From NCBI GenBank assembly GCA_910574835.1, contig CAJTDE010000005.1:62001-126000 (forward strand): a stretch of DNA of 64,000 nt. Direction: 5' to 3'. Below are positions 33,428-47,408 of this stretch, piece after piece. Source of the stretch: Clostridia bacterium (GTDB lineage: Bacteria; Bacillota; Clostridia; Lachnospirales; Lachnospiraceae). Every line of letters begins with the position of its first letter. Position 1 is the first letter of the stretch. A program made the position numbers and the translations under genes. Under the pieces are notes generated by a model. The model was given only the letters and a program-made list of their open reading frames with translations, was not told the origin of the DNA and did not search any database.

Positions 33428-34204
33428 ATGGGCATTCCTGTAAAATTGCCGATATTTGAAGGTCCCTTGGATCTTCTTCTGCATTTAATAGAGAGCAACA
33501 AGATTGATATCTATGACATTCCCATTGTCATGATTACCGATCAATATATGGAATACATCCGGGCGATGGAGACAAAGGATCTTAACACCATGAGCGAATT
33601 TTTGGTGATGGCGGCGACTCTTTTGGAGATCAAGGCCAAGCTTCTCCTTCCGGCTGAGGTGGACGAGGAAGGGGAAGAGATTGATCCCAGAGCTGAGCTT
33701 GTAGAGCGCCTTTTGGAGTACAAGATGTATAAATATATGGCCCTGGAGCTGAAAGACCGTCAAAGCCTTGCAGCCAAGGTTCTTTATAAGGAAGCAACCA
33801 TTCCGGATGAGGTGGCTTCTTACATAGAGCCTGTGGATCTGGAAGAGCTGGTGGGGGATCTGACCCTTCAAAAGCTCAATGAAATTTTTAAATCTATTCT
33901 GCGCAGGCAGGAGGATAAGATCGACCCGGTGCGCAGCAAGTTTGGAGATATTGAGAAGGAGGAGGTCAGCCTGGAGGATAAGATGTCCTTTGTGGAGACC
34001 TATATCTGTGGGAACAGGCGCTTTTGTTTTCGGAATCTTTTGGAGCAGGAAGCGAAAAAAAGCAAGCTTCATGTGATTGTGACTTTTTTGGCTGTGCTGG
34101 AGCTGATGAAGACAGGAAGGCTTACTGTGCGGCAGGAGGAGACTTTTGGGGAGATATGGATTGAGGCGAAGGAAGTGGGGGCGGACGGGACGGCTGCAAA
34201 ATAA
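33428..34204 (+). CDS. scpA: Segregation and condensation protein A
   Basis: 258-residue kleisin subunit of the Smc-ScpA-ScpB condensin, which organises and helps segregate the chromosome. ATG 33428 after TAGGAGAACGGCT starts MGIPVKLPIFEGPLDLLLHLIE, the conserved N-terminal Smc-neck-binding helix region; DIYDIPIVMITDQYMEYI and FLVMAATLLEIKAKLLLP follow. The C-terminal winged helix (about 185-258) binds the Smc head. The open frame upstream (to 33371) is family B repeat. Its last codons (GCAAAATAA) also form the base of a long hairpin. Confidence 0.96.
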   Translation: MGIPVKLPIFEGPLDLLLHLIESNKIDIYDIPIVMITDQYMEYIRAMETKDLNTMSEFLVMAATLLEIKAKLLLPAEVDEEGEEIDPRAELVERLLEYKMYKYMALELKDRQSLAAKVLYKEATIPDEVASYIEPVDLEELVGDLTLQKLNEIFKSILRRQEDKIDPVRSKFGDIEKEEVSLEDKMSFVETYICGNRRFCFRNLLEQEAKKSKLHVIVTFLAVLELMKTGRLTVRQEETFGEIWIEAKEVGADGTAAK

Positions 34205-34397
34205 GACGGCAGCCATTTCCATATCCTGTGTTCGGACGGTTCGCGTACAGGGCGTCTGCTCCGGATGGACATTGACCTTTTTTGCTTTTTAGAACTCTTG
34301 GGTTTTGGGGTCAATGTTCATCCGTATCAGACGCCCTGTACGCGAACAGCCGGACACCGGATATCGGAAAAGTCTGCCATCTTATTTTGCAGCGTCC
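34188..34397 (+). repeat. Family C long hairpin, copy a (scpA-scpB gap)
   Basis: Outer stem GCTGCAAAATAAG (34193-34205, overlapping the scpA stop) with CTTATTTTGCAGC (34381-34393). Then TTTCCATATCCTGTG pairs with CACCGGATATCGGAAA, TTCGCGTACAGGGCGTCTG with CAGACGCCCTGTACGCGAA, and GGATGGACATTGACC with GGTCAATGTTCATCC around a T/G-rich loop. About 210 nt fold into one hairpin. Homologous architecture at 43966-44188 and, inverted, at 46262-46462. Confidence 0.88.
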
Positions 34398-34417
34398 CTG
34401 GTTTTGGGGGTTAAATT

Positions 34418-34554
34418 GTCCGGTTAAGAAATGTGGGTGTTTTTGAAAAAAATTGTTTTTGCCGGATGGTAAAGTCGCAAAGGCACACGAGAGGAACTTT
34501 TATGAGTGTCCTTTTGGATGAAGATTTCTTTTGTTACAGGTGTGTCGAAGCGGC
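34418..34554 (+). repeat. Family A structured repeat, copy 4 (3' end lost)
   Basis: Starts GTCCGGTTAAGAAATG and contains GGTAAAGTCGCAAAGGCACA and GAGAGGAACTTTTAT, but the complementary side has decayed (ATGAAGATTTCTTTTG) and the sequence leaves the consensus after GTGTGTCGAAGCGGC, where the scpB leader begins. The terminal GTCGCGCAGCGAC hairpin is absent. Confidence 0.8.
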
Positions 34555-34582
34555 TATAATTAAGAAGAATGGGGAATTGATT

Positions 34583-35155
34583 GTGGAAGATGAAAGATTG
34601 ATTGCGGCTATAGAGGCTATTTTGTTTACTATGGGGGATTCGGTGGAGATCTCGCATTTGGCAGGGGCCTTGGAGGTGGAGGTAAAAAAGATACGGGAGC
34701 TTCTTGGGGAAATGAAGGGGCGATATGAGAGGGAGGATCGGGGGATTCGGCTTTTGGAGCTTCAAGATGCCTGTCAGCTCTGTACGAAGACGGAATATTA
34801 TGATTATTTGATTCGTATTGCGAAGCAGCCGAAAAAATATGCGCTTACGGAGGTGTTGCTGGAGACGCTTTCTATTGTGGCTTATAAGCAGCCGGTGACT
34901 AGGCTGGAGATTGAGAAGATTCGCGGGGTTAAGTGTGATCATGCGGTGAATAAGCTGGTGGAGTATGGCTTGATTGAAGAGGTAGGCCGCCTGGATGCGC
35001 CGGGACGTCCGCTCTTGTTTGGAACTACGGAGGATTTTCTCAGAAGTTTTGGCGTAACCTCTACGGAGGAGCTTCCGCGGATGAGTCCGGAGCAGATTGA
35101 GGACTTTAAGGAGGAGGCGGAGGAAGAGATACAGCAGAAGATTAATAAAAAATAG
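34583..35155 (+). CDS. scpB: Segregation and condensation protein B
   Basis: 190-residue ScpB, the dimeric winged-helix partner of ScpA in the Smc complex. GTG 34583 after GGGGAATTGATT is chosen because VEDERLIAAIEAILFTMGD corresponds to the family N-terminus; the open frame further upstream to 34433 is translated repeat. Tandem winged-helix domains: residues about 1-85, and 90-165 with LTEVLLETLSIVAYKQPVTR and the R-G-V-x-x-D/H motif IRGVKCDHAVNKLVEYGLIE. The end is acidic. The gap from scpA holds a long hairpin and a family A repeat. Confidence 0.95.
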   Translation: MEDERLIAAIEAILFTMGDSVEISHLAGALEVEVKKIRELLGEMKGRYEREDRGIRLLELQDACQLCTKTEYYDYLIRIAKQPKKYALTEVLLETLSIVAYKQPVTRLEIEKIRGVKCDHAVNKLVEYGLIEEVGRLDAPGRPLLFGTTEDFLRSFGVTSTEELPRMSPEQIEDFKEEAEEEIQQKINKK

Positions 35156-35289
35156 CATAAAAAGAGAATTATAAGACCGGCAGTCTCCTTTAGGGATTGG
35201 CGGTTTTTTCATATATTTATTTAAAAATCGAATGTATTTTGCATGAAATACGGGACGGAGTAAAAAGGCAAAAAAATGGGAAAAATCTC

Positions 35290-35464
35290 GTTACTTTTCA
35301 CACCCACGCCAATCACTCCGTTGATTGGCGTGGAGCCAGTACAGTTATGGGGCCAAAGGGACTGCCCCTCGCCGAAGGCGACTTTAAATGGGCAGTCCCT
35401 GTTACAATTTGCACCCTTATCAAATAAAAACTTTGCAAAAACTGGCGTGGGTGTGAATTGTAAC
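35290..35464. repeat. 175-bp element with 22-bp terminal inverted repeats
   Basis: GTTAC..TTCACACCCACGCCA at 35290-35311 is matched by TGGCGTGGGTGTGAA..GTAAC at 35443-35464, with two mismatched positions. Inside, CCACGCCAATCA pairs with TGATTGGCGTGG, AGGGACTGCCC with GGGCAGTCCCT, and an internal GTTACAATTTGCACCC repeats the end motif. No open frame of interest. The layout is MITE-like or a structured RNA. It lies between scpB and the promoter of the next operon. Confidence 0.7.
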
Positions 35465-35503
35465 AAAATCTTGGAATTTGATGTGGTTTTGATTAGATTT
35501 ATA

Positions 35504-35531
35504 TTGACTTATGTTGGAATTGTGCTATAAT
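35504..35531 (+). promoter_or_regulatory. Promoter of the SDR-PHP-aldolase-dehydrogenase operon
   Basis: TTGACT at 35504-35509, 16-base spacer, TATAAT at 35526-35531. The transcript would have a ~200-base leader containing the family B-like element at 35576-35725. Confidence 0.75.
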
Positions 35532-35575
35532 AAGCTTGTAATTCAAAAACAATCCATTGGTAAATGGTGGAAACA

Positions 35576-35725
35576 GCAGTATCCGCTTTCATATCGGAAG
35601 AGATTGCAAGGTTACCGGTCACAAAGCGGACCATAAAGGAACGGCAGCTTTTCGGGTAAATGATCTTGTGACCGGAGATTCTTTCGGGTAAGGATGGAAA
35701 AAGGGATACTGCGGTACTGGAATGG
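35576..35725 (+). repeat. Family B-like structured element in the SDR leader
   Basis: Outer stem GCAGTATCC (35576-35584) with GGATACTGC (35704-35712); inner stem CCGGTCACAA (35615-35624) with TTGTGACCGG (35666-35675). It ends GCGGTACTGGAATGGAGG, the shared family B tail running into the ribosome binding site. The core differs from the copies at 33294 and 36623, and part of it (AGAGATTGCAAGGTTACCGG) recurs near 53765. Confidence 0.65.
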
Positions 35726-35736
35726 AGGAAAAAACC

Positions 35737-36609
35737 ATGAATCTAGCAGAAGCAAAAGAGTATGCAAAACAAAACATTCACAACAGACCACAGACAACCG
35801 GGCGCTTAGCCGGAAAAATCGCGGTTGTTACAGGCGGGGCACAGGGATTCGGACTTGGAATTGCGACAGAGATGTATAAAGAGGGAGCCAGCGTAGTTCT
35901 GGCTGATTTAAATGAAGCTCAGGCTGTGGAAGCGGCTAAAGCATTGGGAGAGCGTGCTGTTGGCTTAAAGGTAGACGTGTCAAGCGCAGAGTCTATGGAA
36001 GCTATGGTATGCGGAGCCGTAGAGCACTTCGGCGGACTTGATATATTTGTGTCCAATGCGGGCGTTCTCAAAGCCGGAAGTCTGGAGGATATGGAGCCGT
36101 CAGCTTTCGAGTTTGTGACAAAGGTGAATTACATCGGATACTTCAACGCAGCAAAATATGCTTCTGCAATCATGAAAGCACAGCACGAGGCGGACGACAG
36201 CCTTTGGTTTGATATCATTCAGATTAACTCCAAATCCGGTTTGGAGGGTTCCAAGAATAACAGCGCCTATGCGGGCGGCAAGTTCGGCGGAATCGGTCTT
36301 ACCCAGAGCTTCGCACTGGAACTGGTAGCATGGCAGATTAAGGTCAATTCCATCTGCCCCGGCAATTTCTACGACGGTCCCCTGTGGTCCGATCCGGAGA
36401 GAGGGCTTTTCGTACAGTACTTAAATGCCGGCAAGGTTCCGGGAGCCAAGACCGTACAGGATGTAAAGGACTATTACCTGTCCAAATCTCCCATCCACCG
36501 CGGATGTACTCCCGTAGACGTATCCAAGGCCCTGTTCTACTGCGTGGAGCAGAACTTTGAGACCGGACAGGCCGTACCCGTAACCGGCGGACAGAATATG
36601 CTGAACTAA
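35737..36609 (+). CDS. SDR family oxidoreductase
   Basis: 290-residue short-chain dehydrogenase. The ATG at 35737 follows TGGAGGAAAAAACC; an in-frame ATG at 35722 lies before the ribosome binding site and is not used. After a 30-residue extension (NLAEAKEYAKQNIHNRPQTTG) comes the NAD(P) loop VVTGGAQGFGLGIA, then VSNAGVLKAG, and the catalytic region INSKSGLEGSKNNSAYAGGKFGG with S, Y and K. The C-terminus TGQAVPVTGGQNML is typical. The long N-terminal extension and the neighbours resemble sorbitol-6-phosphate 2-dehydrogenase or RhaD-like dehydrogenase parts. I infer action on a sugar or polyol phosphate. Confidence 0.88.
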   Translation: MNLAEAKEYAKQNIHNRPQTTGRLAGKIAVVTGGAQGFGLGIATEMYKEGASVVLADLNEAQAVEAAKALGERAVGLKVDVSSAESMEAMVCGAVEHFGGLDIFVSNAGVLKAGSLEDMEPSAFEFVTKVNYIGYFNAAKYASAIMKAQHEADDSLWFDIIQINSKSGLEGSKNNSAYAGGKFGGIGLTQSFALELVAWQIKVNSICPGNFYDGPLWSDPERGLFVQYLNAGKVPGAKTVQDVKDYYLSKSPIHRGCTPVDVSKALFYCVEQNFETGQAVPVTGGQNMLN

Positions 36610-36622
36610 TCTTTTAAATCAG

Positions 36623-36727
36623 CATCCTGTCATCCGTGCCCAGATGGATTTACAGACGCAGTTATTTTGCGGCTGGAAATTCATCTCATTAAAGGGTGCG
36701 GGTGTCAGGATGCGGAACTGGAATGGA
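36623..36727 (+). repeat. Family B structured repeat, copy before the PHP gene
   Basis: Outer stem CATCCTG (36623-36629) with CAGGATG (36706-36712). The core CAGATGGATTTACAGACGCA and GCGGCTGGAAATTCATCT pair with each other and match the core of the copies at 33294 and 20703. Ends GCGGAACTGGAATGGAGG at the ribosome binding site of the PHP-domain gene. Confidence 0.8.
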
Positions 36728-36738
36728 GGCACTCATTG

Positions 36739-37920
36739 ATGGATAAATTCGTAGAACGGCAGAAAGCACTGAAGCTTCTCAATGCCCCGACCCCGGAAGA
36801 ACGTCTGGCAAATCTGGCTATTGTCCTTGGAAGCGAGAAGGAGAAGCCGGAGGTAAAGCCGCAGTTTGCCAATAATCACATACATACCATATATTCCTTC
36901 TCCCCCTATTCCCCGGCGGCAGCTATTTACTGTGCAAGGGATGAGGGCCTGGAGACAGCAGGAATCATGGATCACGACAGCATTGCCGGCGCGGTAGAGT
37001 TCCGCAAGGCCGGTAAGATCGCCGGAATCGGCACTACCTGCGGAATGGAATGCCGCGCCAATCTGGACGGTACACGCATGGCAGGAAGAAAATTAAATAA
37101 TCCGGACCAGGCAGGGATCGCTTATATGGCCATTCACAGCGTACCCGATTCAGGCTTTGCAAGGCTTCAGGAGGTATTCGGACCCCTGAGAGAAAAGAGA
37201 AACGAACGGAACCGCAAGATGGTTGCCAATATCAACACCCTTATGGAGCCAAAGGGAATCACTCTGGACTTTGACAAGGACGTACTGCCCATTTCCCAGT
37301 ATGCAAATGGCGGCTCCGTCACCGAGCGTCATCTTCTGTGCGCTTTAAGCGAAAAGATTATCGCCAAGGCCGGGAAGGAAAAGTGTGCGGAATTTGTGGA
37401 GAATCAGTTGGGAATCAAGCTTTCCGAAAAGCAAAAAGGACAGCTTTCCGATCCTTTGAATCCGCATTTTGTATATGATCTCTTAGGTGTGATGAAAGCG
37501 GAGCTGGTGGAGAAGATTTATATTCCGGCTACGGAGGAATGTATTTCCTTCAAGGATCTGGTGAAGCTGGCGGACGAAGTGGGAGCCATTCTCTGTTATC
37601 CCTATCTGGGAGATATTACGAACTCCGTAACAGGAGACAAAAAGGCGGCTAAGTTTGAGGACGAGTTCCTGGATGAGCTTTTTGAGATGTTAAAGGAAGA
37701 GGGCGTTCACGGCGTGACCTATATGCCGGCCCGCAACACCAAGGAGCAGATGACCAGGCTTCAGAACCTTTGCCGGGAGTACGGTATGACGGAGATCTCC
37801 GGTGAGGATGTGAACAGCTCCCGTCAAAGTATGATTTGCAAACAGCTTGAGGATCCTCAGTTTAAGCATCTGGTGGATGCCACCTGGAAGCTGATTGAAC
37901 GGGAAAAGGTGAGTGAATAA
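36739..37920 (+). CDS. PHP-domain metal-dependent hydrolase
   Basis: 393 residues; ATG 36739 is 12 bases after TGGAGG. The PHP motif set is visible: NNHIHTIYSFSPYSP (H-x-H), IMDHDSIAGAVEF (D-H-D), GMECRAN (E) and a late SGEDVNSSRQ in place of the usual D-x-H. PHP proteins are phosphoesterases with a trinuclear metal site. At about 393 residues this is larger than YcdX-like or histidinol phosphatase-like forms, with an inserted region at about 120-260. As part of an operon with an SDR, a class II aldolase and a dehydrogenase, it may dephosphorylate or hydrolyse a sugar-phosphate intermediate. Confidence 0.85.
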   Translation: MDKFVERQKALKLLNAPTPEERLANLAIVLGSEKEKPEVKPQFANNHIHTIYSFSPYSPAAAIYCARDEGLETAGIMDHDSIAGAVEFRKAGKIAGIGTTCGMECRANLDGTRMAGRKLNNPDQAGIAYMAIHSVPDSGFARLQEVFGPLREKRNERNRKMVANINTLMEPKGITLDFDKDVLPISQYANGGSVTERHLLCALSEKIIAKAGKEKCAEFVENQLGIKLSEKQKGQLSDPLNPHFVYDLLGVMKAELVEKIYIPATEECISFKDLVKLADEVGAILCYPYLGDITNSVTGDKKAAKFEDEFLDELFEMLKEEGVHGVTYMPARNTKEQMTRLQNLCREYGMTEISGEDVNSSRQSMICKQLEDPQFKHLVDATWKLIEREKVSE

Positions 37921-37921
37921 C

Positions 37922-38569
37922 ATGCAGATAGACAAGGATGCGATCCGGGAGATATTGCTTGTAGCAAAGCGCTTGGACGAAAAGCAGCTTTTGAATGCAG
38001 TGGAGGGCAATATTTCCATTAAGCGCGGCGGGCTGATCTATGTGACCCCCAGTGCCAGAAATAAGGCATTTCTCACGGAGGAAATGATAGCCGTTACCGA
38101 TTTGGACGGCAATCAGGTAGGCGGAACCTTAAAAGCCACCTCGGAGCTTCGGCTTCATGTGCTGACTTACCGGATGCGGGAGGATATCGGAGGAATCGTC
38201 CACGCACATCCCGCTTATCTTACGGCACACGCAGTATGCGGTAAGCCGGTGGAGACAAGGGCCTATCCGGAAATGATGTTTAAATACGGGCGCATTGAGG
38301 TAGCAGGCTACGGGAGGCCGGGAACGGATGATATCTGCCGGGATCTGGGGCCCATTTTAAAGCACAGCAATGTAGCCCTTCTGGAAAATCACGGCGCCAT
38401 TGCGGTAGGTCCGGACGCCATAGAGGCCATGAACAATATGGAAGCCGCCGAAGCCATTGCCAAGGTGCTTACGATTTCAAAGCTTGTAGGGACTCAGAAG
38501 GATCTTCCGGAGGAGGAATGCCACCATCTGCTTTCCCAGCATGAGGAGCAGCAGGTTACCTTCCGGTAA
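37922..38569 (+). CDS. Class II aldolase/adducin family protein
   Basis: 215 residues; ATG 37922 starts one base after the PHP stop (GTG 37913 is an in-frame alternative). Class II aldolase features: VEGNISIKRGGLIYVTPSARNK, IVHAHPAYLTAHAV with two zinc-binding histidines, EMMFKYGRIEVAGYGRPGTDD, and LLENHGAIAVGPDAIEAM with the third histidine. Relatives are L-fuculose-phosphate, ribulose-5-phosphate and rhamnulose-phosphate aldolases/epimerases. The catalytic acid is not certain. Coupling with the SDR and zinc-type dehydrogenase suggests breakdown of a phosphorylated sugar or polyol. Confidence 0.9.
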   Translation: MQIDKDAIREILLVAKRLDEKQLLNAVEGNISIKRGGLIYVTPSARNKAFLTEEMIAVTDLDGNQVGGTLKATSELRLHVLTYRMREDIGGIVHAHPAYLTAHAVCGKPVETRAYPEMMFKYGRIEVAGYGRPGTDDICRDLGPILKHSNVALLENHGAIAVGPDAIEAMNNMEAAEAIAKVLTISKLVGTQKDLPEEECHHLLSQHEEQQVTFR

Positions 38570-38651
38570 AGAGGATTTTCGGAAAACATTGCATCCGCAC
38601 GTATCAGAAAATGAAAAATTAAGGCTTGATAAAGCCAAAAGGAGAGAAAAT

Positions 38652-39914
38652 ATGAAAACAAAAGCGTTAAGATTGTACGGAAAAGAAGATCTGCGTCTGG
38701 AGGAGTTTGAGCTTCCGGAGCTTAAGGATGACGAGATTCTGGCAAAGGTTGTATCTGACAGTATCTGCATGTCCTCCTACAAGGCTGCTATGCAGGGTGC
38801 GGATCACAAGCGTGTTCCCAATGATGTGGCGGAGCATCCCACCATCATCGGCCATGAGTTCTGCGGCGAGCTGGTAAAGGTAGGCTCCAAGTGGGCCAAT
38901 GAGTTCAAGGAGGGAGAGAAGTTCTCCATTCAGCCGGCTCTCAACTACAAGGGAAGCCTGGACGCGCCGGGATATTCCTTCCAATTTATCGGCGGAGACG
39001 CTACCTATGTGGTAATCCCCAATGAGGTTATGGAAATGGGCTGTCTCCTTCACTTTGACAGCGAGAATTATTTCGGCGGTTCTCTGGCGGAGCCTTTGTC
39101 CTGCGTGGCAGGAACCTTCCATGCCATGTACCATGTGACCAGAGGAAAATATGAGCATGACATGGGAATCGTAGAGGGCGGCAAGATGGCAATTCTGGCA
39201 GGCGTAGGCCCGATGGGGCTGGCTGCTATTGATTATATCATTCATTGCGACCGCAATCCGTCCCTTCTGATTGTAACGGATATTGACGACGCGCGTCTGG
39301 CGCGTGCGGAGCAGATTCTTTCTCCCGAGGAAGCCGCGAAAAAGGGAATTAAGCTTGTCTATGTGAACACAGGCAAGGTTGAGGATCAGAAGAAGTGCAT
39401 GATGGACTTCACGGACGGAGCCGGCTATGACGATGTACTCTGCTTTGCTCCCGTTGCTCCGGTGGTAGAGCTGGCTGACAGTATTCTGGCACAGGACGGC
39501 TGCCTGAACTTCTTTGCAGGACCCTCCAACCCGGAATTTTCCGCAAAGTTCAACTTCTACAACGTACATTACTCCGGAACTCATGTAGTGGGAACCTCCG
39601 GCGGCAATACGGATGATATGAAGGAATGTCTGGCTATGATGGGACAGGGCAAGCTGGATCCGGCTATTCTGGTTACCCATATCGGTGGCCTTGACGTGGC
39701 AAGAGAGACTACCTTGAATCTTCCCAAGGTTCCGGGCGGAAAGAAGCTGATTTACACACACATTTCTCTGCCGCTGACAGCTATTGCGGATTTTGAGGAA
39801 AAAGGAAAGACAGAGCCTATGTTTGCGGAGCTTCATAAGCTGGTTTCCAAGACAAACGGACTGTGGAATACGGAAGCGGAGAAGTATCTGCTGGAGCATG
39901 CGCCGGCCATCTAA
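38652..39914 (+). CDS. Zinc-type alcohol dehydrogenase family protein (sorbose-1-phosphate reductase-like)
   Basis: 420-residue medium-chain dehydrogenase; the ATG at 38652 follows AAAGGAGAGAAAAT, and the open frame upstream overlapping the aldolase gene is not used. Seen: KALRLYGKEDLRLEEFELPELKDDEILAK, the GHEFCGELVKVG motif, and the Rossmann loop LAGVGPMGLAAIDYI at about 180-195. The usual catalytic-zinc cysteine reads C in DSICMSSYK. The length and sequence style resemble L-sorbose-1-phosphate reductases. Last gene of the operon, followed by a terminator. Confidence 0.83.
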   Translation: MKTKALRLYGKEDLRLEEFELPELKDDEILAKVVSDSICMSSYKAAMQGADHKRVPNDVAEHPTIIGHEFCGELVKVGSKWANEFKEGEKFSIQPALNYKGSLDAPGYSFQFIGGDATYVVIPNEVMEMGCLLHFDSENYFGGSLAEPLSCVAGTFHAMYHVTRGKYEHDMGIVEGGKMAILAGVGPMGLAAIDYIIHCDRNPSLLIVTDIDDARLARAEQILSPEEAAKKGIKLVYVNTGKVEDQKKCMMDFTDGAGYDDVLCFAPVAPVVELADSILAQDGCLNFFAGPSNPEFSAKFNFYNVHYSGTHVVGTSGGNTDDMKECLAMMGQGKLDPAILVTHIGGLDVARETTLNLPKVPGGKKLIYTHISLPLTAIADFEEKGKTEPMFAELHKLVSKTNGLWNTEAEKYLLEHAPAI

Positions 39915-39970
39915 TGAGAAGATAAAATAGGAATACACACAGTTCGATATAGGAACGGTGACAGGATAAA

Positions 39971-40020
39971 GGGAGCGTCGCAAAATATCTGCGGATTTAT
40001 TTTGCGGCGTCCCTTTCTTG
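39971..40020 (+). terminator. Terminator of the SDR-PHP-aldolase-dehydrogenase operon
   Basis: GGGAGCGTCGCAAAATA folds on TATTTTGCGGCGTCCC and is followed by TTTCTT. About 60 bases after the dehydrogenase stop. Confidence 0.8.
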
Positions 40021-40176
40021 ATATCTGTGAGAATAAAAATTTAATAATTCTTAAGAAAAGAATCAAGCATTTTGAAAGTTCTTTGTATACAATCAGGATA
40101 AAGAAGAAGCTTTTTTCAGCAGACATAAGAAAAACGTCTGAACTATATGGCGAGACAGCAAGAAGGAGCATAACAA

Positions 40177-40887
40177 ATGGAAAAGATTTTGATTGTAGAG
40201 GATGACAAAGCCCTAAGCAACGGCATCGCTTTAGCGCTGAAAGCAGAGGGCTATTTATTTTTACAGACCTATGACTTGGCCGAAGCAAGGAAAATTCTGG
40301 ACAAAGAGGAGATTTCTCTTGTGATTCTGGACCTGAATCTGCCGGATGGCAGCGGACTTACGCTTCTTACGGAGGTTAAGCAAAAGCAGGAGACGCCGGT
40401 GGTCATACTCACGGCAAACGATCTGGAAACGGACATTGTTACCGGTCTGGAGCTTGGAGCCGACGACTATATCACCAAGCCTTTCAGTCTTATGGTGCTG
40501 CGCGCCCGCATCAATACTCAGATGCGGAAGATGCGCCGGGGAGGACTGCAGGTATATCAGTCGGGGAAATTTTATTTTTCCTTCTCCAGTATGGAATTTA
40601 TCAAAGGAAATCAGAAGATCGAGCTTAGCAAAACCGAGCAGCGGCTTTTAAAGCTGCTGGTTGAGAACCGGGGACTGACCCTCTCTAGGGGCGAGCTTGT
40701 GGATCGCGTTTGGACCGACGGCGCCCAGTATGTGGATGAAAATGCATTGTCCGTCACGATCAAGCGCCTCCGGGATAAGCTTGAGGACAACTCTTCCGCC
40801 CCCAGGTATATCAAAACCGTCTACGGAATCGGCTATACCTGGTCGGACGAACGGCTTGGAGGTATTCAAAAAGGCACACATGGATAA
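40177..40887 (+). CDS. OmpR-family response regulator
   Basis: 236 residues. Receiver domain 1-118: ILIVEDDKAL, VILDLNLPDGSGL with the phospho-aspartate, VVILTANDLE and TKPFSLMVL. The winged-helix trans_reg_C domain (about 135-230) has ELSKTEQRLLKLLVENRG, DRVWTDGAQYVDENALSVTI and KTVYGIGYTW. Start follows GGAGCATAACAA. It overlaps the kinase gene by eight bases. The pair resembles BceRS/VanRS-type systems that respond to cell-wall antibiotics, but no ABC gene follows directly. Confidence 0.92.
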   Translation: MEKILIVEDDKALSNGIALALKAEGYLFLQTYDLAEARKILDKEEISLVILDLNLPDGSGLTLLTEVKQKQETPVVILTANDLETDIVTGLELGADDYITKPFSLMVLRARINTQMRKMRRGGLQVYQSGKFYFSFSSMEFIKGNQKIELSKTEQRLLKLLVENRGLTLSRGELVDRVWTDGAQYVDENALSVTIKRLRDKLEDNSSAPRYIKTVYGIGYTWSDERLGGIQKGTHG

Positions 40888-41824
40888 CTATATGATTCTC
40901 TGTATGGCATTTGCAGCCGCAGCCATTGTCCTGGCATTCTGCATGGTTCTGGAGAGAAGGCAGATACACAGGCACCTGAATCACCTGGATCGGATGCTGG
41001 AGACGGCCATAGACGGAAGCTTTGAGGAGCGGCATTTTGACGAAAGCCGTCTTTCCTCCTTTGAGGCAAGGCTTTATCAGTATCTAAGCCGCCAGGCGGG
41101 AAAGGAGCGGGAGCTTACCCGGGAGAAGAAGGAGATTCACGGGCTGATTGCAGATATTTCCCATCAGACCAAGACGCCCATAGCCAATCTGATACTGTAT
41201 GCGGATCTCCTTTCGGAGCAGGCGCCGGAGGAATCAAGGGAGCTTTCCCGGCAGATTACCGTACAGGCGGAAAAGCTTCAGTTTCTTATCACATCGCTTA
41301 TCAAGGGTTCCCGTTTGGAGCAGGGAATCATTCACCCCGCGCCGAAAAAATGTTCCGTTGGCGAGCTTATTGTCCGAACTGCAAAGGAGGGCGCTTATCT
41401 GGCTGAGAAAAAGGGGATACGGCTTGCCTGGCAGATTGAGGAGGGAACGGATCTGGCCTGGTTTGACCCCAAGTGGACAGGGGAAGCTTTGTGGAATCTT
41501 CTGGACAATGCCATCAAATATACCTTTGAGGGGGATACCGTTCTGATACAGGGGCGCGCCTATGAGCTTTTTTACCGGATTGATGTTGTGGATCACGGCA
41601 GGGGGATTTCGGAGGAGGAGATCCCGAAGGTCTTTCATAGATTTTACCGCTCTCCCAAGAGCCGGGAGGAAGAGGGTGTGGGGCTTGGCCTTTATCTGGC
41701 AAGGGAAATTATCCAGGCCCAGGGAGGTTATATGAAGGTAACATCGGGGAAGGAAACTGTGTTTTCCATCTTTCTTCTCCGAAGGGAGGAAGCGTTTCAT
41801 ACGGAACTTGATCATGGAGCTTAG
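40880..41824 (+). CDS. Sensor histidine kinase
   Basis: 314 residues; ATG 40880 lies within the last codons of the response regulator gene, with GGAGG upstream in the coding sequence of the regulator. One clear N-terminal membrane segment (YMILCMAFAAAAIVLAFCMV) and little extracytoplasmic sequence. H-box: DISHQTKTPIANLILYADLL; N-box LWNLLDNAIKYT; G boxes VDHGRGISEEE and GVGLGLYLAREI. A small kinase of the BceS/VanS-like intramembrane-sensing kind, which usually relies on a partner membrane protein for detection. The partner may be the MacB/FtsX-type exporter 5 kb downstream; that is inference. Confidence 0.9.
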   Translation: MDNYMILCMAFAAAAIVLAFCMVLERRQIHRHLNHLDRMLETAIDGSFEERHFDESRLSSFEARLYQYLSRQAGKERELTREKKEIHGLIADISHQTKTPIANLILYADLLSEQAPEESRELSRQITVQAEKLQFLITSLIKGSRLEQGIIHPAPKKCSVGELIVRTAKEGAYLAEKKGIRLAWQIEEGTDLAWFDPKWTGEALWNLLDNAIKYTFEGDTVLIQGRAYELFYRIDVVDHGRGISEEEIPKVFHRFYRSPKSREEEGVGLGLYLAREIIQAQGGYMKVTSGKETVFSIFLLRREEAFHTELDHGA

Positions 41825-41950
41825 GCAGAATAACAAAAATATCTGCCGAGGCTCTTTTTTTCTGAAATCTGCAACTTTTCCCGCGCAGGAATGGTCTATT
41901 ATACGAAAGGGTAAAAAAGCTTTTTTACGAAATCATCCGGAAACGGAAAT

Positions 41951-41967
41951 GGAACTGGAATAAGAGG
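41951..41967 (+). repeat. Family B tail before the ECF sigma gene
   Basis: GGAACTGGAATAAGAGG matches the conserved family B tail and includes the ribosome binding site of the sigma factor gene. No paired arms were found upstream. Confidence 0.45.
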
Positions 41968-41973
41968 TAAGAA

Positions 41974-42465
41974 ATGCAGCAGGATTATTTTGAGGAAATT
42001 GTAGAATACATTCTGGAAAATCAGAACAGGCTTTACCGTCTGGCCTACTCCAATGTTCAAAATGAGCAGGATGCTATGGATGTAGTGCAAAATACCATCT
42101 GCAAAGCTCTGGAACATGCAGGCGAGCTTCGCGATATCCGCGCGGTAAGAACCTGGGTTTATCGGATTCTAATGAATGAGAGCATGACGTTTCTCAGGAA
42201 AAACAGAAGGGAACTGTTGCTGGAAGAACCCTTGGATGAGGAGGCGTTTGTCTGTGATCCGGAGTATGCGGACAGGGACGAATTGTTTGAGCGAATCAAG
42301 GGACTGCCTGCAACGGTGCAGAATATTATCCGGCTTCGGTTTTATGAAGAGCTGTCATTGCAGGAAATATCGGAAGCGATGGGGCTTAATCTGAATACGG
42401 TGAAGGCGAAGCTTTACCGGGGTCTTAAGGCCCTGCGTGTGGAAATGGAGGGAATGAAGGTTTGA
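41974..42465 (+). CDS. ECF-type RNA polymerase sigma factor
   Basis: 163 residues. Region 2: NRLYRLAYSNVQNEQDAMDVVQNTICKALEH, which binds RNA polymerase and the -10 element; region 4: VQNIIRLRFYEELSLQEISEAMGLNLNTVKAKLYRGLKAL, recognising the -35. Length and domain pair are those of ECF sigma factors (SigV/SigW-like). It overlaps the following RsiV-like gene, so that protein is probably its anti-sigma factor. Start follows AAGAGGTAAGAA. Confidence 0.93.
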   Translation: MQQDYFEEIVEYILENQNRLYRLAYSNVQNEQDAMDVVQNTICKALEHAGELRDIRAVRTWVYRILMNESMTFLRKNRRELLLEEPLDEEAFVCDPEYADRDELFERIKGLPATVQNIIRLRFYEELSLQEISEAMGLNLNTVKAKLYRGLKALRVEMEGMKV

Positions 42466-43334
42466 AAGAGTTGGAGAAGAGCAAAGAAACCTATGAGAGC
42501 ATCGTGATTCCGAAGGAGTTGGAGGGAAAAGTTCAGGAGACCATTGAAGCTTCCCGCCGGAAGAGAGAAAAGCGCTTTGCAAAAAACAGGCGCAGAAAGC
42601 TTTACAGATGGGCCGTGGGAATAGCGGCGGTCTTTACGGTGGCAACGACCATTGGACTGAATACGAGTGAGGCATTTGCGATGGAGGTGCAGAAAATCCC
42701 GGTTATCGGAGAGCTTGCACGGATACTTACCATTCGCTCTTATGAAAAAACGGAAGGAGACACTCAGATTGCCGCTGAGATTCCCGGTGTGGATTTGGGT
42801 GAGGACGGACAAAAGCTGTCGGAGGAGGTCAACGCTCAGATTGAAAAAATGACAGCACAGTATGAGAGTGAGGCTGTGGAAAGAGCGAAAGAGTATAAGA
42901 AAGCGTTTCTGGAAACAGGCGGAACGGAAGAGGAATGGGCGGAGCATGATATTCGTATTCGTGTGTGGTATGAGATTAAAAATCAGACGGAGGATGTGTT
43001 GTCTTTCGTGGTAAAGGGTACGGAGAGCTGGACGAGCGCTTATGCGGAAACACGGTATTACAATCTGGACTTGGAGAGCAATGAGTTTTTGACGCTTGAG
43101 AGTTTTCTGGGGAAGGATTATGTGGAGAAGGCAAATGAAAGTATCCGCGGACAGATAGAGGAGCGGATGAAAAAGGGAGAGGCTTTCTTTGCTCCGGAGG
43201 AAGGCGGCTTTGAGACGATTGAGGCGGAACCTGATTTTTATGTGAATGAGAAGGGGAATCCGGTGATTGTATTTGAAAAATATGCGATTGCGCCGGGAGC
43301 TATGGGGGAAGTGGAGTTTGAGATTGCTTTGTAA
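42462..43334 (+). CDS. RsiV-like anti-sigma factor with DUF4179/DUF3298-type domains
   Basis: 290 residues from TTG 42462, overlapping the sigma factor stop (TTGA). The cytoplasmic N-terminus (1-45) is followed by a basic stretch and one membrane segment (YRWAVGIAAVFTVATTIGLNT), then an extracellular part. The region about 85-290 resembles the RsiV extracytoplasmic domain: IPGVDLGEDGQKLSEEVNAQ, YYNLDLESNEFLTLESFLG and EADPDFYVNEKGNPVIVFEKYAIAPGAMG-like C-terminus (here AEPDFYVNEKG). RsiV in Bacillus binds lysozyme and is then cleaved, releasing SigV. A lysozyme-sensing role here is inferred from family and context. Confidence 0.87.
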   Translation: MKELEKSKETYESIVIPKELEGKVQETIEASRRKREKRFAKNRRRKLYRWAVGIAAVFTVATTIGLNTSEAFAMEVQKIPVIGELARILTIRSYEKTEGDTQIAAEIPGVDLGEDGQKLSEEVNAQIEKMTAQYESEAVERAKEYKKAFLETGGTEEEWAEHDIRIRVWYEIKNQTEDVLSFVVKGTESWTSAYAETRYYNLDLESNEFLTLESFLGKDYVEKANESIRGQIEERMKKGEAFFAPEEGGFETIEAEPDFYVNEKGNPVIVFEKYAIAPGAMGEVEFEIAL

Positions 43335-43350
43335 GGAAAGGATGATGGAA

Positions 43351-43956
43351 ATGAAAAGAAGAGGATTTGTTTTGGTTTTGGCGATGGTTATGGTGATGGG
43401 GGCTTCGGCTTGTAAGGGAGAAGAGATCAAGGAAGAGGATAATTTTTCGGCTGTGGGGCAGGAGGATCTACAAAACGATCAGAAAGAGGCAGAAGATGAG
43501 AAGGGGGATGCGGAGGAGCCTCAAGCGGGTGTGGGATCGGATGATGAGTTGGAAGATGGAGTGGACGGGAGTGATGCGGAAGTGGGGAAACCTGATAGTA
43601 ATTTGGATAATTTTGATGCGGATATGGGGGAGGTTTCGGATTTTGCGGCTTTGATTAAGGAGGCTGTGGGAGAGAAGGATTTGGAGAAGCTTGCACAGCT
43701 GACAGGTTTTCCGGTTTATGTCGGACTGGACGGGGTGGATGTAGTGGAGACAAAGGAAGCGTTTTTGAAGCTTGATCCGGATGAGGTGTTTTCGGAGGAG
43801 ATGATGCGTTCGATTGAGAAAGCGGATGTTGGGGATTTGGCGGCTAGTATGGCTGGGTTTACTTTGATGGATTATGATACGGAAGGGAGCGCTGGTATTA
43901 CTTTTGGAATGGTGGATGGGGGGCTTTTTGTTACTGGGATTAATTATGGGTATTGA
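43351..43956 (+). CDS. Lipoprotein with acidic linker
   Basis: 201 residues from ATG 43351 (43345 and 43342 are in-frame alternatives; GGAAAGG lies upstream). Lipoprotein signal RGFVLVLAMVMVMGASAC with the lipobox ASAC, then a very acidic, low-complexity linker (residues about 22-90, rich in E, D and G), then a small domain, about 95-201, with DFAALIKEAVGEKDLEKLAQLTGFPVYVG and LDPDEVFSEEMMRSIEKADV. The second domain resembles the small helical domains found in surface lipoproteins of Clostridia. It probably belongs to the sigma/anti-sigma operon, 16 bases downstream. Function unknown. The third codon positions are strongly G/T-biased. Confidence 0.75.
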   Translation: MKRRGFVLVLAMVMVMGASACKGEEIKEEDNFSAVGQEDLQNDQKEAEDEKGDAEEPQAGVGSDDELEDGVDGSDAEVGKPDSNLDNFDADMGEVSDFAALIKEAVGEKDLEKLAQLTGFPVYVGLDGVDVVETKEAFLKLDPDEVFSEEMMRSIEKADVGDLAASMAGFTLMDYDTEGSAGITFGMVDGGLFVTGINYGY

Positions 43957-43965
43957 GGGACGGAC

Positions 43966-44188
43966 GATTTAATTGCCAGGAGCCAGCCCAGCCCGGCGGA
44001 TTTTCCATATCTGTGTTCGGACGGTTCACGTACAGGCTGTCTGCTCTGGTCATACATTATCTTTGAGGTTTTTTAGGTCTTTTGGTTTTTTGGTAATGTA
44101 TGCCCATATCAGACAGCCTGTACGCGAACAGCCGGACACCTGATATCGGAAAATCCGCCGGGCTGGGCTGGCTCCTGGCAATTAAATC
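43966..44188 (+). repeat. Family C long hairpin, copy b
   Basis: Perfect 41-bp outer stem: 43966-44006 is the exact reverse complement of 44148-44188. Inside, ATATCTGTGTTCGG faces CCGGACACCTGATAT, CGTACAGGCTGTCTG pairs with CAGACAGCCTGTACG, and CATACATTA pairs with TAATGTATG around a T-rich loop (about 44062-44091). Total 223 nt in one hairpin. The unpaired blocks and their order match copy a at 34188-34397, while the outer stem sequence is unrelated. Confidence 0.93.
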
Positions 44189-44352
44189 TGGGGATGTGGA
44201 AATTAGCGGGGGGGATAGGAAGCTCATTTATGAATTATGAATTTGTAATGTTGGTTTTTGAATAGGAGGGGCATATTAACTGGATTTTTTTGAAGTTGGT
44301 TTAGTTGGCTTAATTTGACTTAAATTTTTTTGAAGCTGAATGTCATATATAT

Positions 44353-44381
44353 TTGACAAAATGTCGTGTGGGTGGTAAGAT
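44353..44381 (+). promoter_or_regulatory. Promoter with overlapping palindrome before the XRE regulator
   Basis: TTGACA at 44353-44358, 17-base spacer, TAAGAT at 44376-44381. The -35 box is part of TGTCATATATATTTGACA (44341-44358), an inverted repeat TGTCA/TGACA, followed by TGTCG, which could be an operator for the XRE protein encoded next. Confidence 0.6.
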
Positions 44382-44526
44382 AAATTTAAGAAGGGAACGT
44401 ATTAATTGGGTAGATAAATAACAGTTTGAAAGTAAGAGAATGAAGCAGGGGATGGGTAAGTTGTAAAAGTTTTGTTTTTGAATGGGGTTTGAGGTGAAAC
44501 TGTTTTTTGATAGGGGGTGGCGGATT

Positions 44527-44739
44527 GTGGCTAAGAATCTGAAGCTGAAGGCGGCGAGAGCGGAGCTTGATTATTCTCAGGAGGATCTGGCGAAGCTGGT
44601 GGGGGTGTCGCGGCAGACGATTAATATGATTGAACGGGGGGATTATAATCCTACTTTGAATCTTTGCTTAAGTATCTGCCATGCTTTGGGAAAAACCTTG
44701 GATGAAATTTTTTGGAAGGATATTGCGGAACTGGAATAG
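44527..44739 (+). CDS. XRE-family helix-turn-helix regulator
   Basis: 70 residues from GTG 44527, preceded by GGGGGTGG; ATG 44482 is an in-frame alternative with no ribosome binding site. LKAARAELDYSQEDLAKLVGVSRQTINMIERGDYNPTLNLCLSICHALGKTLDEIF is a complete HTH-XRE domain of the short, stand-alone type (YozG-like), usually adjacent to genes for membrane proteins, as here. The final residues DIAELE are encoded by a family B repeat tail. It may repress its own promoter through the palindrome overlapping the -35 box. Confidence 0.9.
   Translation: MAKNLKLKAARAELDYSQEDLAKLVGVSRQTINMIERGDYNPTLNLCLSICHALGKTLDEIFWKDIAELE
44719..44739 (+). repeat. Family B tail at the end of the XRE gene
   Basis: GATATTGCGGAACTGGAATAG matches the family B tail; its final TAG is the stop codon of the XRE gene. 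It is joined directly to a degenerate family A copy. Confidence 0.5.
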
Positions 44740-44784
44740 TCCGGTTGAAATGGACTTTACCCTTTAGTGCCGTCGCGCAGCGAC
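44739..44784 (+). repeat. Family A repeat with internal deletion
   Basis: GTCCGGTT (44739-44746), the usual 5' end of the element, is followed after six bases by GGACTTTACCCTTTAGTGCC and GTCGCGCAGCGAC (44772-44784), the usual 3' end. The central hairpin (about 120 bases) is missing. It is followed by TATAGGAGG, the ribosome binding site of the next gene. Confidence 0.75.
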
Positions 44785-44803
44785 TTTTATAGGAGGGATA
44801 GCG

Positions 44804-46117
44804 ATGAAGAAGGAATGGATCTTATGGAATGTTCTTCAAAATCCGGAGAATATTACGGCAGACGAGCGGATGGAGCAGATTGAGTGGAAGAATTATTACT
44901 GGTCCTATAAGGCATTGCTGCAGATATTTTTTTTATTTATTGTGTTATGGCCGGGCATTATGACTTTGTTTCAGAGCTATCTGGGAGAAAGCTTTAGCTT
45001 TGATGTTTTGCTCAGGCTTGCTATACTTCAGATTATAGTGATTATAGAGAGCGGCCGCTTTCTGTACAGCTGTTATTTCGGGAATCAGGAATTTTATGAT
45101 CGGAGCAAAGGCAGAACGTCGTATCTTGTAATTGGTTTGCAGATAGCGGTCATTTCCTGGATCATGCTTTGGATAGAACGCGGGTTCCGTCATCCGCTGC
45201 CTTGGATTATGATGGTCGTTGGGCTGCTTATTTATTGGGGGTTGTGTCATCTGGCTTATTTGCACCATGCTATGCTGATGGACGAAACAACGGAAGAGGC
45301 AGGGCATAAGAGTGAGAGATGGATTCCCGGGGTATGCGGAGTTACTTTAGCTGCTTATTTCTTAGTGGTGAATGTCCTTATGTGTACTGCCATAACAGGG
45401 GGGAGAAGTACGTCTCATCTGACGGAGGAAGAACAGCGCATGATAAACACCGTGCAGCTTGGAATTAGTAATTACTATGCTTTGTCAAACTACCGGATGG
45501 ACTACACTTTCAAAACCGATACACAGCCGGAAGCTCCTGTTTATTATGAGAATAACAGTTATGATCTGTCCCATGTCTACTGTCTGGCAAATGACGGAGA
45601 ACTTTACAACCAGATCTTAAATCCTGGAAACGATAAAAGCATTTACCGGGAATACCGCAGAGAATCGGAAAATCACTTTTCATGGGAAATGGCCTATGAA
45701 GGACGCTGGATCTCCGACATCGAATGGGCCGAGCTTTGGACAGAAAACCAGGAAGAACCGGAATTTTGGATCAATGAACCCTACACCGGCCTGCCGGAGA
45801 TTGATCCAAAGTCCGTAACTTCCGTCATAAAAGAATATCAAAATCAAAACACCTGCTATACTATTACCTACAACCAGGATTACGACACGGCAGGTACAAC
45901 CTTAAAAGATAATGAGGATCTAAAAAACTTTACGGCCACAGACTGCTACACCCTCAATGAATACAATACCCTTATCCAATACGAGCGCACCGAAACCGGC
46001 ATAACAAAAGCGACCGAAGAACCGCGCACCCTGCAGCGCACCATCACCATTCTGGGCGTAGACAGAGAACAAATTCAATCCGAAATACGGACCCTAACAA
46101 GCCGATACACCCCCTAA
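44804..46117 (+). CDS. Membrane protein of unknown function (437 aa)
   Basis: 437 residues; the start follows TATAGGAGGGATAGCG. Residues about 30-215 hold five hydrophobic segments (e.g. ALLQIFFLFIVLWPGIMTLF, GVTLAAYFLVVNVLMCTAI); the C-terminal half (220-437) is hydrophilic and probably extracellular, with many aromatic, Asn and Glu residues and no recognised domain. The upstream XRE regulator is probably its regulator, as XRE-membrane protein pairs are common in Clostridia. Base composition changes inside the gene: the first half is G/T-rich on the coding strand, the second half A/C-rich. I do not recognise the family. Confidence 0.7.
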   Translation: MKKEWILWNVLQNPENITADERMEQIEWKNYYWSYKALLQIFFLFIVLWPGIMTLFQSYLGESFSFDVLLRLAILQIIVIIESGRFLYSCYFGNQEFYDRSKGRTSYLVIGLQIAVISWIMLWIERGFRHPLPWIMMVVGLLIYWGLCHLAYLHHAMLMDETTEEAGHKSERWIPGVCGVTLAAYFLVVNVLMCTAITGGRSTSHLTEEEQRMINTVQLGISNYYALSNYRMDYTFKTDTQPEAPVYYENNSYDLSHVYCLANDGELYNQILNPGNDKSIYREYRRESENHFSWEMAYEGRWISDIEWAELWTENQEEPEFWINEPYTGLPEIDPKSVTSVIKEYQNQNTCYTITYNQDYDTAGTTLKDNEDLKNFTATDCYTLNEYNTLIQYERTETGITKATEEPRTLQRTITILGVDREQIQSEIRTLTSRYTP

Positions 46118-46261
46118 CCCCTATTTAATGCTTCACTCCCTGCCGGCAAAAATCATGAAGCTAACTCCGAAAAGCTTATGAAAGTTTCAGACAAGAATCA
46201 CCCCAAAAAAGAATTTGCAATTTTAACACCCCCAAAACAATTAGGCGCAGGAAGAAAACCA

Positions 46262-46462
46262 GGGAGAAGGGCCGGGCGGGGAGGATTTTCACTTATCCGG
46301 TGTCCACCTTTTCGACACATATGTATGAGCTGAGCGGACTTTGCCAAAAAACATCCAACACCCAGATAACAAAAAGGGCAAAGTCCGATCAGAGCATACA
46401 TATGTAACGAGAAACACGTGGACACAGGATATGGAAAATTCTCCCCGCCCGGTCCTTCTCCC
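46262..46462 (-). repeat. Family C long hairpin, copy c (inverted)
   Basis: Outer stem GGGAGAAGG.CCGGGCGGGG (46262-46281) with CCCCGCCCGG.CCTTCTCCC (46443-46462). Then GGTGTCCAC with GTGGACAC, ACATATGTATG with CATACATATGT, and CGGACTTTGCC with GGGCAAAGTCCG around an A-rich loop. Read on the minus strand the blocks TTTTCCATATCCTGTGT, GCTCTG, a T-rich loop, CTCAG and GGACACCGGATA come in the same order as in copies a and b, so this copy lies in opposite orientation. Confidence 0.88.
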
Positions 46463-46732
46463 GTCCGTCCCCAACCTCCCCGCATTAAAAAAATTACAAA
46501 TCTAACAACTCCGTTATATTCCCGAAAGAAAAGAGAAATCCTCCCATGCTATACTCATTACATAAAGCCGGATGCACCAAACACGCAGACACTTCATCTG
46601 CCCCCACCCCTGCATAAATACACATCTTTAAACGCAGGAACCGCACCCGGCTCAAAAGAGTACCCCCGGAAACACATTTGCCAAGCATGAATTTCCGAGA
46701 GCGCCCAAAAAAGAAACGGAGGACACAACCCA
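46463..46732 (+). other. Leader region of the ABC exporter operon
   Basis: Between the long hairpin and the ATPase start. It is A/C-rich, contains a TATACT that could be a -10 box near 46548, and no clear -35. A 90-codon frame (46418-46690) runs through the hairpin and has a biased composition. I see no gene or other RNA here. Confidence 0.35.
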
Positions 46733-47407
46733 ATGACAATCCTGGAAACAAGAGACCTGAAAAAATACTACAATTCCGGCGAAACCACCGTAAAAGCCTT
46801 AGACGGCGTAAACCTGAAGATAGAAGCCGGCACCTTCACCGCCATCGTCGGCACCTCCGGCAGCGGAAAATCCACACTGCTCCACATGCTCGGCGGCCTG
46901 GACCGCCCCACGGAGGGCAAAGTACTGGTAGACAAAAAAGACATATTTACCTTCAAGGAAGAAGCCCTCACCATCTTCCGCCGAAGAAAAATCGGCTTCG
47001 TATTCCAAAGCTACAACCTGGTCCCGGTCCTCAATGTAAAGGAAAACATCCTGCTCCCCATCGAGCTTGACGGCGGCCGCCCGGATCAAGCCTACATCCA
47101 AAAAATCATAACCCTCCTGGGCCTGGAAGAAAAGCTTCAAAACCTTCCCAGCAACCTCTCCGGCGGTCAGCAGCAGAGAGTGGCCATCGCCCGCGCCCTG
47201 GCAGGCAAGCCGGCAATCATTCTGGCCGACGAGCCAACCGGCAACTTGGATTCCCGGACCAGTCAGGACGTCATGAGCCTGCTAAAAGTGACAAGCGAGC
47301 GTTTCCGCCAGACCATCGTCATGATCACCCACAACGAAGAGATCGCCCAGACCGCCGACCGTATCATCCGCATCGAGGACGGCCGTATCGCAAAGGATGG
47401 TGAATAA
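46733..47407 (+). CDS. ABC transporter ATP-binding protein (MacB/LolD-like)
   Basis: 224 residues. Walker A GTSGSGKST (about 38-46), Q-loop FVFQSYNLVPVLNV, signature LSGGQQQRVAIARAL, Walker B IILADEPTGNLDS, then TIVMITHNEEIAQTADRII. This is the MacB/LolD/BceA-type ATPase that works with FtsX-domain permeases. It starts after ACGGAGGACACAACCC and is followed by the permease gene. Transporters of this class export or expel antimicrobial peptides, or release lipoproteins. The substrate is unknown; the orphan kinase at 40880-41824 could be its sensor partner. Confidence 0.93.
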   Translation: MTILETRDLKKYYNSGETTVKALDGVNLKIEAGTFTAIVGTSGSGKSTLLHMLGGLDRPTEGKVLVDKKDIFTFKEEALTIFRRRKIGFVFQSYNLVPVLNVKENILLPIELDGGRPDQAYIQKIITLLGLEEKLQNLPSNLSGGQQQRVAIARALAGKPAIILADEPTGNLDSRTSQDVMSLLKVTSERFRQTIVMITHNEEIAQTADRIIRIEDGRIAKDGE

Positions 47408-47408
47408 C

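Follow-up and report, generated by a model that had tools for sequence, protein, structure and literature searches.

The DNA described here is a 64,000-nt stretch (the window) from a Clostridia bacterium of the family Lachnospiraceae (assembly GCA_910574835.1, contig CAJTDE010000005.1, positions 62,001 to 126,000), which carries three long hairpins of a single layout; these hairpins, the dispersed family to which they belong and the skewed base composition of the DNA around them are the subject of the analysis. The original prediction, made from the window's letters, had placed all three just 3′ of a gene, which is true of two: the 5′ arm of copy 1 encodes the last codons and the TAA stop of scpA (stop at 34202–34204), an overlap that had also been foreseen, and copy 2 begins shortly past an open reading frame (Table 1). 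It does not hold for copy 3, which is inverted and lies 145 nt past a + strand gene.

Read from the outside in, the layout consists of a GGAC foot, a copy-specific outer stem of about 25–45 bp, conserved block 1 (TTTCCATATC(C)TGTGT), a second stem, an internal loop, a third stem and a T/G-rich terminal loop of about 30 nt, followed by the return arm, which carries conserved block 2 (GGACACCGGATATCGGAAA). The two blocks pair with each other, leaving recurring bulges, and GGAC stands immediately 5′ of the stem in 31 of 46 rows from the source genome. The outer stem of copy 2 is indeed perfect over 41 bp, as had been claimed. Folded as RNA, copies 1, 2 and 3 reach −145.4, −160.8 and −129.6 kcal/mol, each more stable than 200 of 200 shuffled sequences (z −14.7, −17.9 and −12.2), and all three share the closing block of the return arm, with four pattern matches at up to three mismatches against 0.11 expected; the fourth is the other arm of copy 3, and the pattern was derived from the copies themselves. 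The stability and the common closing block together bear out the original claim that the three hairpins have one layout. The G+T content of the loop is 0.73–0.81 in five of six genomes.

A covariance model was built from 43 copies of the source genome (G000, 5.0 Mb; other G numbers denote compared genomes, L numbers loci); L052 and four short copies were left out, and L051, which has no closing block, was dropped. Among the 150 of 1737 candidates that were scored in G000, 60 places over 27 contigs match at E 1.2e-31 or better, and 18 further, weaker or shortened places at E ≤ 0.1. Many copies in relatives had been proposed as a check on the family, and at E ≤ 1e-30, with reverse-strand duplicates removed, the model finds 74 in G002 and 64 in G007. 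By BLAST the family is present in 13 of 16 genomes of the genus, G000 counted, and in none of 179 genomes outside it. A pattern scan of public genomes gave 93 stretches among the matches listed, confined to five assemblies (B90_2, C56_79_FC_BP, A46_38.BP.DSS, Lachnoclostridium sp. S30_Bin3 and Bacterium 1XD21-13); the MGBC names of the matched assemblies presumably indicate a mouse-gut origin. Shortened copies of about 88 nt (L043, L045, L057, L058 and others) keep the outer stem and block 1, the inner stems being gone. Short sister hairpins of about 125–150 nt, built on the same inner motif, are present in G003, G009, G010, G011, G014 and G015, and also in G232, of another genus, which with G000 makes up the two matched among 150 family genomes.

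The hairpins have no match in Rfam when the whole window is searched at the gathering threshold, and a permissive search with copy 2 returned only microRNA-like matches far below gathering; at the thresholds used, then, the expectation of no known RNA was confirmed. An exact-pattern search of viral contigs and a blastn search of phages and plasmids with copy 2 were likewise without a match, and searches of the open-licence literature turned up no description of the hairpin family or of its flanking footprint.

Copies come and go, since the occupancy of sites differs between relatives. No element stands at the copy 1 site, the scpA end, in any of the 11 relatives read; the copy 2 site is occupied also in G007 and G002, with no element in the stretches read from G005 and G006; and the copy 3 site is occupied in G007 and, by eye, in G013, with a different-looking copy in the gap of G012 and none seen in the stretches read from G005 and G006. 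At this same site G002 has an end-remnant of copy 3 (CCCTTCTCCCGTCCGTC; L155, near 2530–2560), the remainder being gone, which is probably a deletion scar. Many sites are common to relatives, 24 copies of the source genome having a G007 counterpart with both flanks matching, and the family does not give the impression of recent activity. Recent transposition was considered and is not supported: likeness of loop and of outer stem is uncoupled among copies, only two of 33 loop-similar pairs being alike in the outer stem as well, both of them same-site pairs of two species. Empty sites are too diverged to fix the element ends for a target-site duplication. Two pairs, L006 (G000)/L197 (G002) and L020 (G000)/L065 (G006), have flanks that are 95–99% identical in species otherwise less alike, reflecting either recent transfer or assembly contamination.

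The new element of this analysis is a footprint in the composition of the flanking DNA. The blocks alone served to assign orientation, and the profile was taken over a constant set of flanks, each 2.5 kb or longer, 57 upstream and 58 downstream, drawn from several genomes and counting same-site copies. In it the GC skew in element orientation is 0.41 at 0–250 bp on both sides and 0.13 at 1.25 kb, falling to 0.11 upstream and 0.06 downstream at 2.25 kb; control positions at these loci, with no copy within 2.5 kb, have a mean skew of 0.07–0.10 (n = 80). The footprint is graded, reaches about 1.25 kb to each side, and its averaged peak is centred on the element. The element + strand is poorer in C and A and richer in G and T: in a larger set (169 copies near, fewer far, with some identical copies counted in two species) C is 13–14% from about 22%, A about 22% from 25–26%, G up to 32–35% and T up to 29–32%. 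Both 500-bp flanks are positive in 54/57 copies of G000, 36/39 of G002, 41/42 of G007, 9/10 of G012 and 6/6 of G005; among eight shortened copies examined, the skew exceeds 0.25 on both sides in two, most of them showing weak skew or none. The balanced composition of the stems is no evidence here, because pairing forces balance. Divergence is 1.95% at 0–500 bp from copies and 1.05% beyond 2.5 kb (33 pairs), but the near bins hold more non-coding DNA, and no faster change near copies is claimed from this.

In 62 copies the far flank spans 2 kb or more, and the skew near the copy can be set against that of its surroundings: 45 point the same way as the far skew, all with positive near skew, and 17 oppose it. 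In 14 of these 17 the near skew is positive all the same (two-sided sign test, 0.013); of the 14, two represent a single site, present in G007 and in G012, and another two lie in one gap. Within the window, copy 3 is a direct example. Orientation by replication strand, suggested by positive skew in 145 of 146 copies under a T/G-loop filter, was rejected as the explanation, since the near skew mostly follows the element even against the far background. A process tied to the element is favoured, because neither replication nor transcription of the host gene would follow an inverted element.

Table 1. Hairpin copies, their parts and their footprints (window coordinates; loci for the sister hairpins)
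Feature	Position	Strand	Basis or remark
Copy 1, full hairpin	34187..34398	+	Read, folded, covariance-model match
GGAC, foot of copy 1	34183..34186	+	Read from sequence
Copy 1, conserved block 1 (ATTTCCATATCCTGTGT)	34215..34231	+	Block comparison
Copy 1, terminal loop	34278..34308	+	T/G-rich, 31 nt between arms
Copy 1, conserved block 2 (GGACACCGGATATCGGAAAA)	34352..34371	+	Closing-block pattern match
Copy 2, full hairpin	43966..44188	+	Starts 10 nt past stop of open reading frame 43267–43956
GGAC, foot of copy 2	43962..43965	+	Read from sequence
Copy 2, terminal loop	44060..44093	+	T/G-rich, 34 nt between arms
Copy 2, conserved block 2	44134..44153	+	Closing-block pattern match
Copy 3, full hairpin	46262..46462	−	Orientation opposite to neighbouring genes
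Copy 3, conserved block 1 (TTTTCCATATCCTGTGT)	46422..46438	−	Block comparison
Copy 3, conserved block 2, variant form	46286..46305	−	Closing-block pattern match
Footprint of copy 2	42700..45400	+	GC skew 0.42–0.47 in 2-kb windows 42001–45000; limits approximate, from averaged profile
Footprint of copy 3	45400..47700	−	+ strand skew −0.09 to −0.16, fits inverted copy; limits approximate
Short sister hairpins, other species and another genus	L067–L072, L080–L084, L386–L388		

Both sides of the stems change together, as had been predicted: among the 43 copies of the source genome 47 of 75 pairs have changed on both sides, and the covariation score is 0.383 against 0.107 when shuffled, with none of 500 shuffles as high. 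Mean identity of the outer arms over all pairs of 119 copies is 0.57. The hairpin fold is under constraint, because arms and blocks diverge less than flanks and loops in 29 same-site pairs of G000 and G007: 0.8 and 1.4% in the outer arms, 0.6 and 1.5% in the inner arms and 0.2 and 0.7% in the blocks, against 2.3% in the loops, 2.0% in the upstream gene and 4.4% and 3.3% in the DNA 35–95 and 95–380 nt downstream. In small, more distant sets (6 and 7 pairs) the outer arms diverge by 15–20%, no less than the upstream gene (14–17%) and roughly half as far as the near downstream DNA (29–34%).

The kinds of change in the outer stems were counted in 27 same-site pairs, several of which rest on a single matching flank and some of which share a member, and comprise 121 double Watson–Crick changes, 14 other doubles and 73 singles. 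Double changes are clustered (29 adjacent against 18.7 expected, p 0.0055) in the 25 pairs of the clustering and transition analysis, from which L031/L327 and L053/L079 are absent, and in one same-site pair (L017/L203) a 7-bp indel is present in both arms. The outer doubles (44 of transition type, 77 of transversion type) resemble the outcome of copying one arm onto the other in a single step, because they are not richer in transitions than the substitutions of the flanks (351:475 downstream, Fisher p 0.24 against the outer doubles; 614:620 in upstream genes). Passage through G–U intermediates should enrich transitions, so that the outer-stem pattern is unlike step-by-step change of an RNA helix. 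Template switching is an established route to arm copying and can make and mend perfect stems (PMC8794818). In the core stems, transitions lead the double changes 39:21 in the 27 pairs, and compensation there may be step-wise.

Mismatches were counted by type as well, with 7 GU and 19 AC on the + strand in the outer stems (87 non-redundant stems), 13 GU and 22 AC among same-site outer singles, 39 GU and 25 AC among core singles (27 pairs) and 6 GU and 3 AC among close-pair outer singles. Folding of the minus strand, an idea from the first outer-stem count (26 AC, 4 GU; 11 of the 26 AC cells are one column adjoining a conserved block), was dropped, the later counts being mixed, and these counts are not used to assign a folding strand.

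We read the three hairpins, with reserve and at a little under an even chance, as copies of a non-coding DNA repeat, dispersed through the genome, whose + strand acts as a single-stranded hairpin. The original prediction had allowed either a structured RNA or a hairpin that copies itself; of this, a real family with covarying stems stands, and the evidence leans toward a DNA element over a structured RNA, while self-copying lacks support, loop and outer stem being alike only at the same site in two species and no enzyme having been found. On both sides one strand is depleted of C and A and enriched in T and G, most strongly by the hairpin; together with the T/G-rich loop, this suggests repeated single-strand exposure, given the chemistry of unpaired DNA. 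The + strand around a copy would become single-stranded repeatedly, and the exposed strand would fold into the hairpin, perhaps bound via the conserved blocks and the GGAC foot; deamination, or damage of another kind, would remove C and A from its unpaired parts, leaving the footprint and the T/G-rich loop, and the paired arms would be kept alike by selection for the fold and by arm-to-arm template switching. The driver may be a nuclease or a transposase that works on single strands in trans, or else replication or repair stalling at the folded + strand. Resection at double-strand breaks is disfavoured, because the strands that it exposes left and right of the break would be opposite ones, with skews of opposite sign. 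A stronger version, which we hold to be doubtful, makes each element a strand-specific mutator acting in cis: a cellular process would keep opening about 1.25 kb to either side and leave the + strand single, and over evolutionary time A and C on that strand of the neighbouring genes would turn into G and T, the direction being dictated by the element and by neither replication nor transcription.

The main rival has the hairpin act in RNA: it would give the transcript of the upstream gene a structured 3′ end, as terminator or stabiliser, and the footprint would be left by transcription or by R-loops that expose the non-template strand. This would explain why a + strand frame of at least 70 codons ends within 90 nt upstream in 115 of 157 copies, against 58 of 152 for the mirror image, and it agrees with the lead of transitions and of GU singles in the core stems. 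By eye, G005 and G006 carry terminator-like hairpins where copy 2 is absent, and the outer stem of the sister hairpin L387 (G232) runs into CCCTTTTGCTTT, as in an intrinsic terminator; the idea of terminator substitution was set aside, a terminator scan having picked out 2/57 copies and 2/37 control gene ends with a detector that finds few terminators anywhere. Yet copy 3 lies in reverse orientation between + strand genes and the skew around it is reversed as well, the near skew follows the element in most copies that oppose their background, and the outer stems have no G–U preference, so that an action in RNA seems to us unlikely.

The footprint might also have come first, the element inserting preferentially, in fixed orientation, where one strand was already G/T-rich. 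Bearers and non-bearers of a copy were compared by counting A or C in the non-bearer with G or T in the bearer against the reverse (pairwise counts, not polarised). Downstream of copy 1 the ratio is at least 2:1 in eight of the 10 relatives other than G007 (89:22 against G002; lowest 58:35), and over the same columns the skew is 0.11–0.28 in all 10 against 0.36–0.47 in G000. At the copy 2 site, G005 and G006 give 77:26 and 58:9 upstream and 56:4 and 55:14 downstream, and the comparison with two other bearers is balanced; right of copy 3 the change is directional against G004 and G006. Near comparisons with non-bearers at four G002 sites (A–D) reach at least 2:1 in 13 of 27 cases, with 5/5 right (27:12 to 34:7) and 2/5 left at site B, 3/3 right (42:14, 68:17, 81:14) and 1/3 left at site C, and 2/2 (76:23, 78:22) at site D, where bearer against bearer is balanced (34:30, 34:36, 26:21, 27:22). 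Of the 26 far comparisons three do so, each of them at site B right far, and some lean the opposite way (44:74). Directional change accompanies the copy at most, not all, sites.

A number of observations count against the element as the source of the skew. Upstream of copy 1 only three of the 10 relatives reach 2:1, and G007 is skewed at the copy 1 site with no copy; right of copy 3, G012 and G013 bear copies and are still as low as the genomes lacking one, and left of it the change is not directional, G002, G005 and G012 being at least as skewed as G000. Site A has a copy and none of its nine near comparisons reaches 2:1 (25:49 to 50:34); site B is unbalanced far to the right (44:14, 54:16 and 56:18 against G013, G005 and G006) and is skewed on the left with no copy in G000, G012 and G013. 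Three of the 17 copies opposing their background do not follow element orientation, G013 is weaker (both flanks positive in 4/6, loop G+T 0.58), and 12 short sister hairpins examined have no consistent footprint. Nor was a partner transposase found: PF01797 (Y1) has matches in eight of 16 genomes of the genus and none in G007, with its 64 copies, and Y1 matches across the genus do not track hairpin copy number.

Lost copies or earlier skew may explain the exceptions. Skew with no copy, in G007 at the copy 1 site and in three genomes each left of copy 3 and left of site B, is what prior skew with preferred insertion would leave, as are the far imbalance at site B and the 45 of 62 copies lying with the far background; against it stand the lower skew of the 10 relatives downstream of copy 1, the peak centred on the element from both sides and the balance between bearers at site D, and we regard this order of events, too, as improbable. 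A skewed stretch in G002 (L368, 11216–12116; site B right far), distant from the G002 copies, adjoins the position of a G000 copy (C6:23088), and is perhaps the trace of a lost copy.

That the arms are a mere product of template switching, and the repeats inert remains with an unselected fold, would accord with the making and repair of perfect stems by that route (PMC8794818) and with the transition proportion that double changes share with downstream substitutions, but is very improbable given that the outer arms of G000 and G007 change at about 1/4 to 1/3 of the downstream rate and that blocks and bulges persist. Arm correction alone also looks too slow, because double changes are rare in the outer stems of the close G000/G007 pairs (1 double, 11 singles; 28 pairs, copy 3 counted twice).

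Should the element be the cause of the footprint, a short repeat that encodes no product would set the mutation spectrum and codon use of dozens of genes, and even the ends of their proteins, regardless of replication strand, and the family would be a natural system for finding what exposes one bacterial DNA strand at hairpins. The stems also counsel caution: in a long hairpin, strong covariation can arise from arm copying at the level of DNA and is, alone, no proof of a structured RNA.

The window holds a different repeat of about 176 nt at 35288–35466, an inverted repeat with 30-nt arms, of which G000 and G007 have many copies 94–99% alike; it looks more recently spread than the diverged hairpin family. 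At the gathering threshold Rfam matches the window only at a T-box leader (1263–1484, +; 124.9 bits), and an open frame of 3241 codons runs from 53835 to 63560 (+).

Among known systems, template-switched hairpins share perfect stems and multi-base compensatory changes with the family described here, which differs in having no RNA-strand preference in the outer stems and in its flanking footprint, a feature unmentioned in the part of that source consulted (PMC8794818). As a repeat, the family resembles extragenic palindromes of the REP (repetitive extragenic palindromic) or MITE (miniature inverted-repeat transposable element) type, each definition fitting in part. REP and REPIN (BIME) elements with their RAYT (REP-associated tyrosine transposase) are likewise dispersed, extragenic, palindromic and of high copy number, with a tetranucleotide at the stem foot, GGAC here and GTAG in many of the REPs tabulated in PMC2817692. 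The hairpins of this family differ in being about 210 nt long, with three nested stems of copy-specific sequence, and a RAYT as partner enzyme was rejected, no such gene having been found in the genomes rich in copies. One Y1 transposase frame that we take to be RAYT-like (L101:1258–1926, −) lies in G001, a genome without copies by BLAST, and two of the four PF01797 matches of G000 were read, both of which we take to be IS200-TnpA-like. MITEs are also short, non-coding and dispersed, with inverted ends; here the outer arms are not conserved between copies, and no parent transposon was found. Integron attC sites share the recognition of a folded single strand, variable stems, conserved boxes and bulges and a position 3′ of genes, whereas the copies of this family are scattered over 27 contigs and form no cassette array. 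Finally, the loss of C, and partly of A, from one strand recalls the strand-coordinated damage of single-stranded DNA and the class-switch regions of eukaryotic systems, with the difference that here it is centred on a bacterial repeat.

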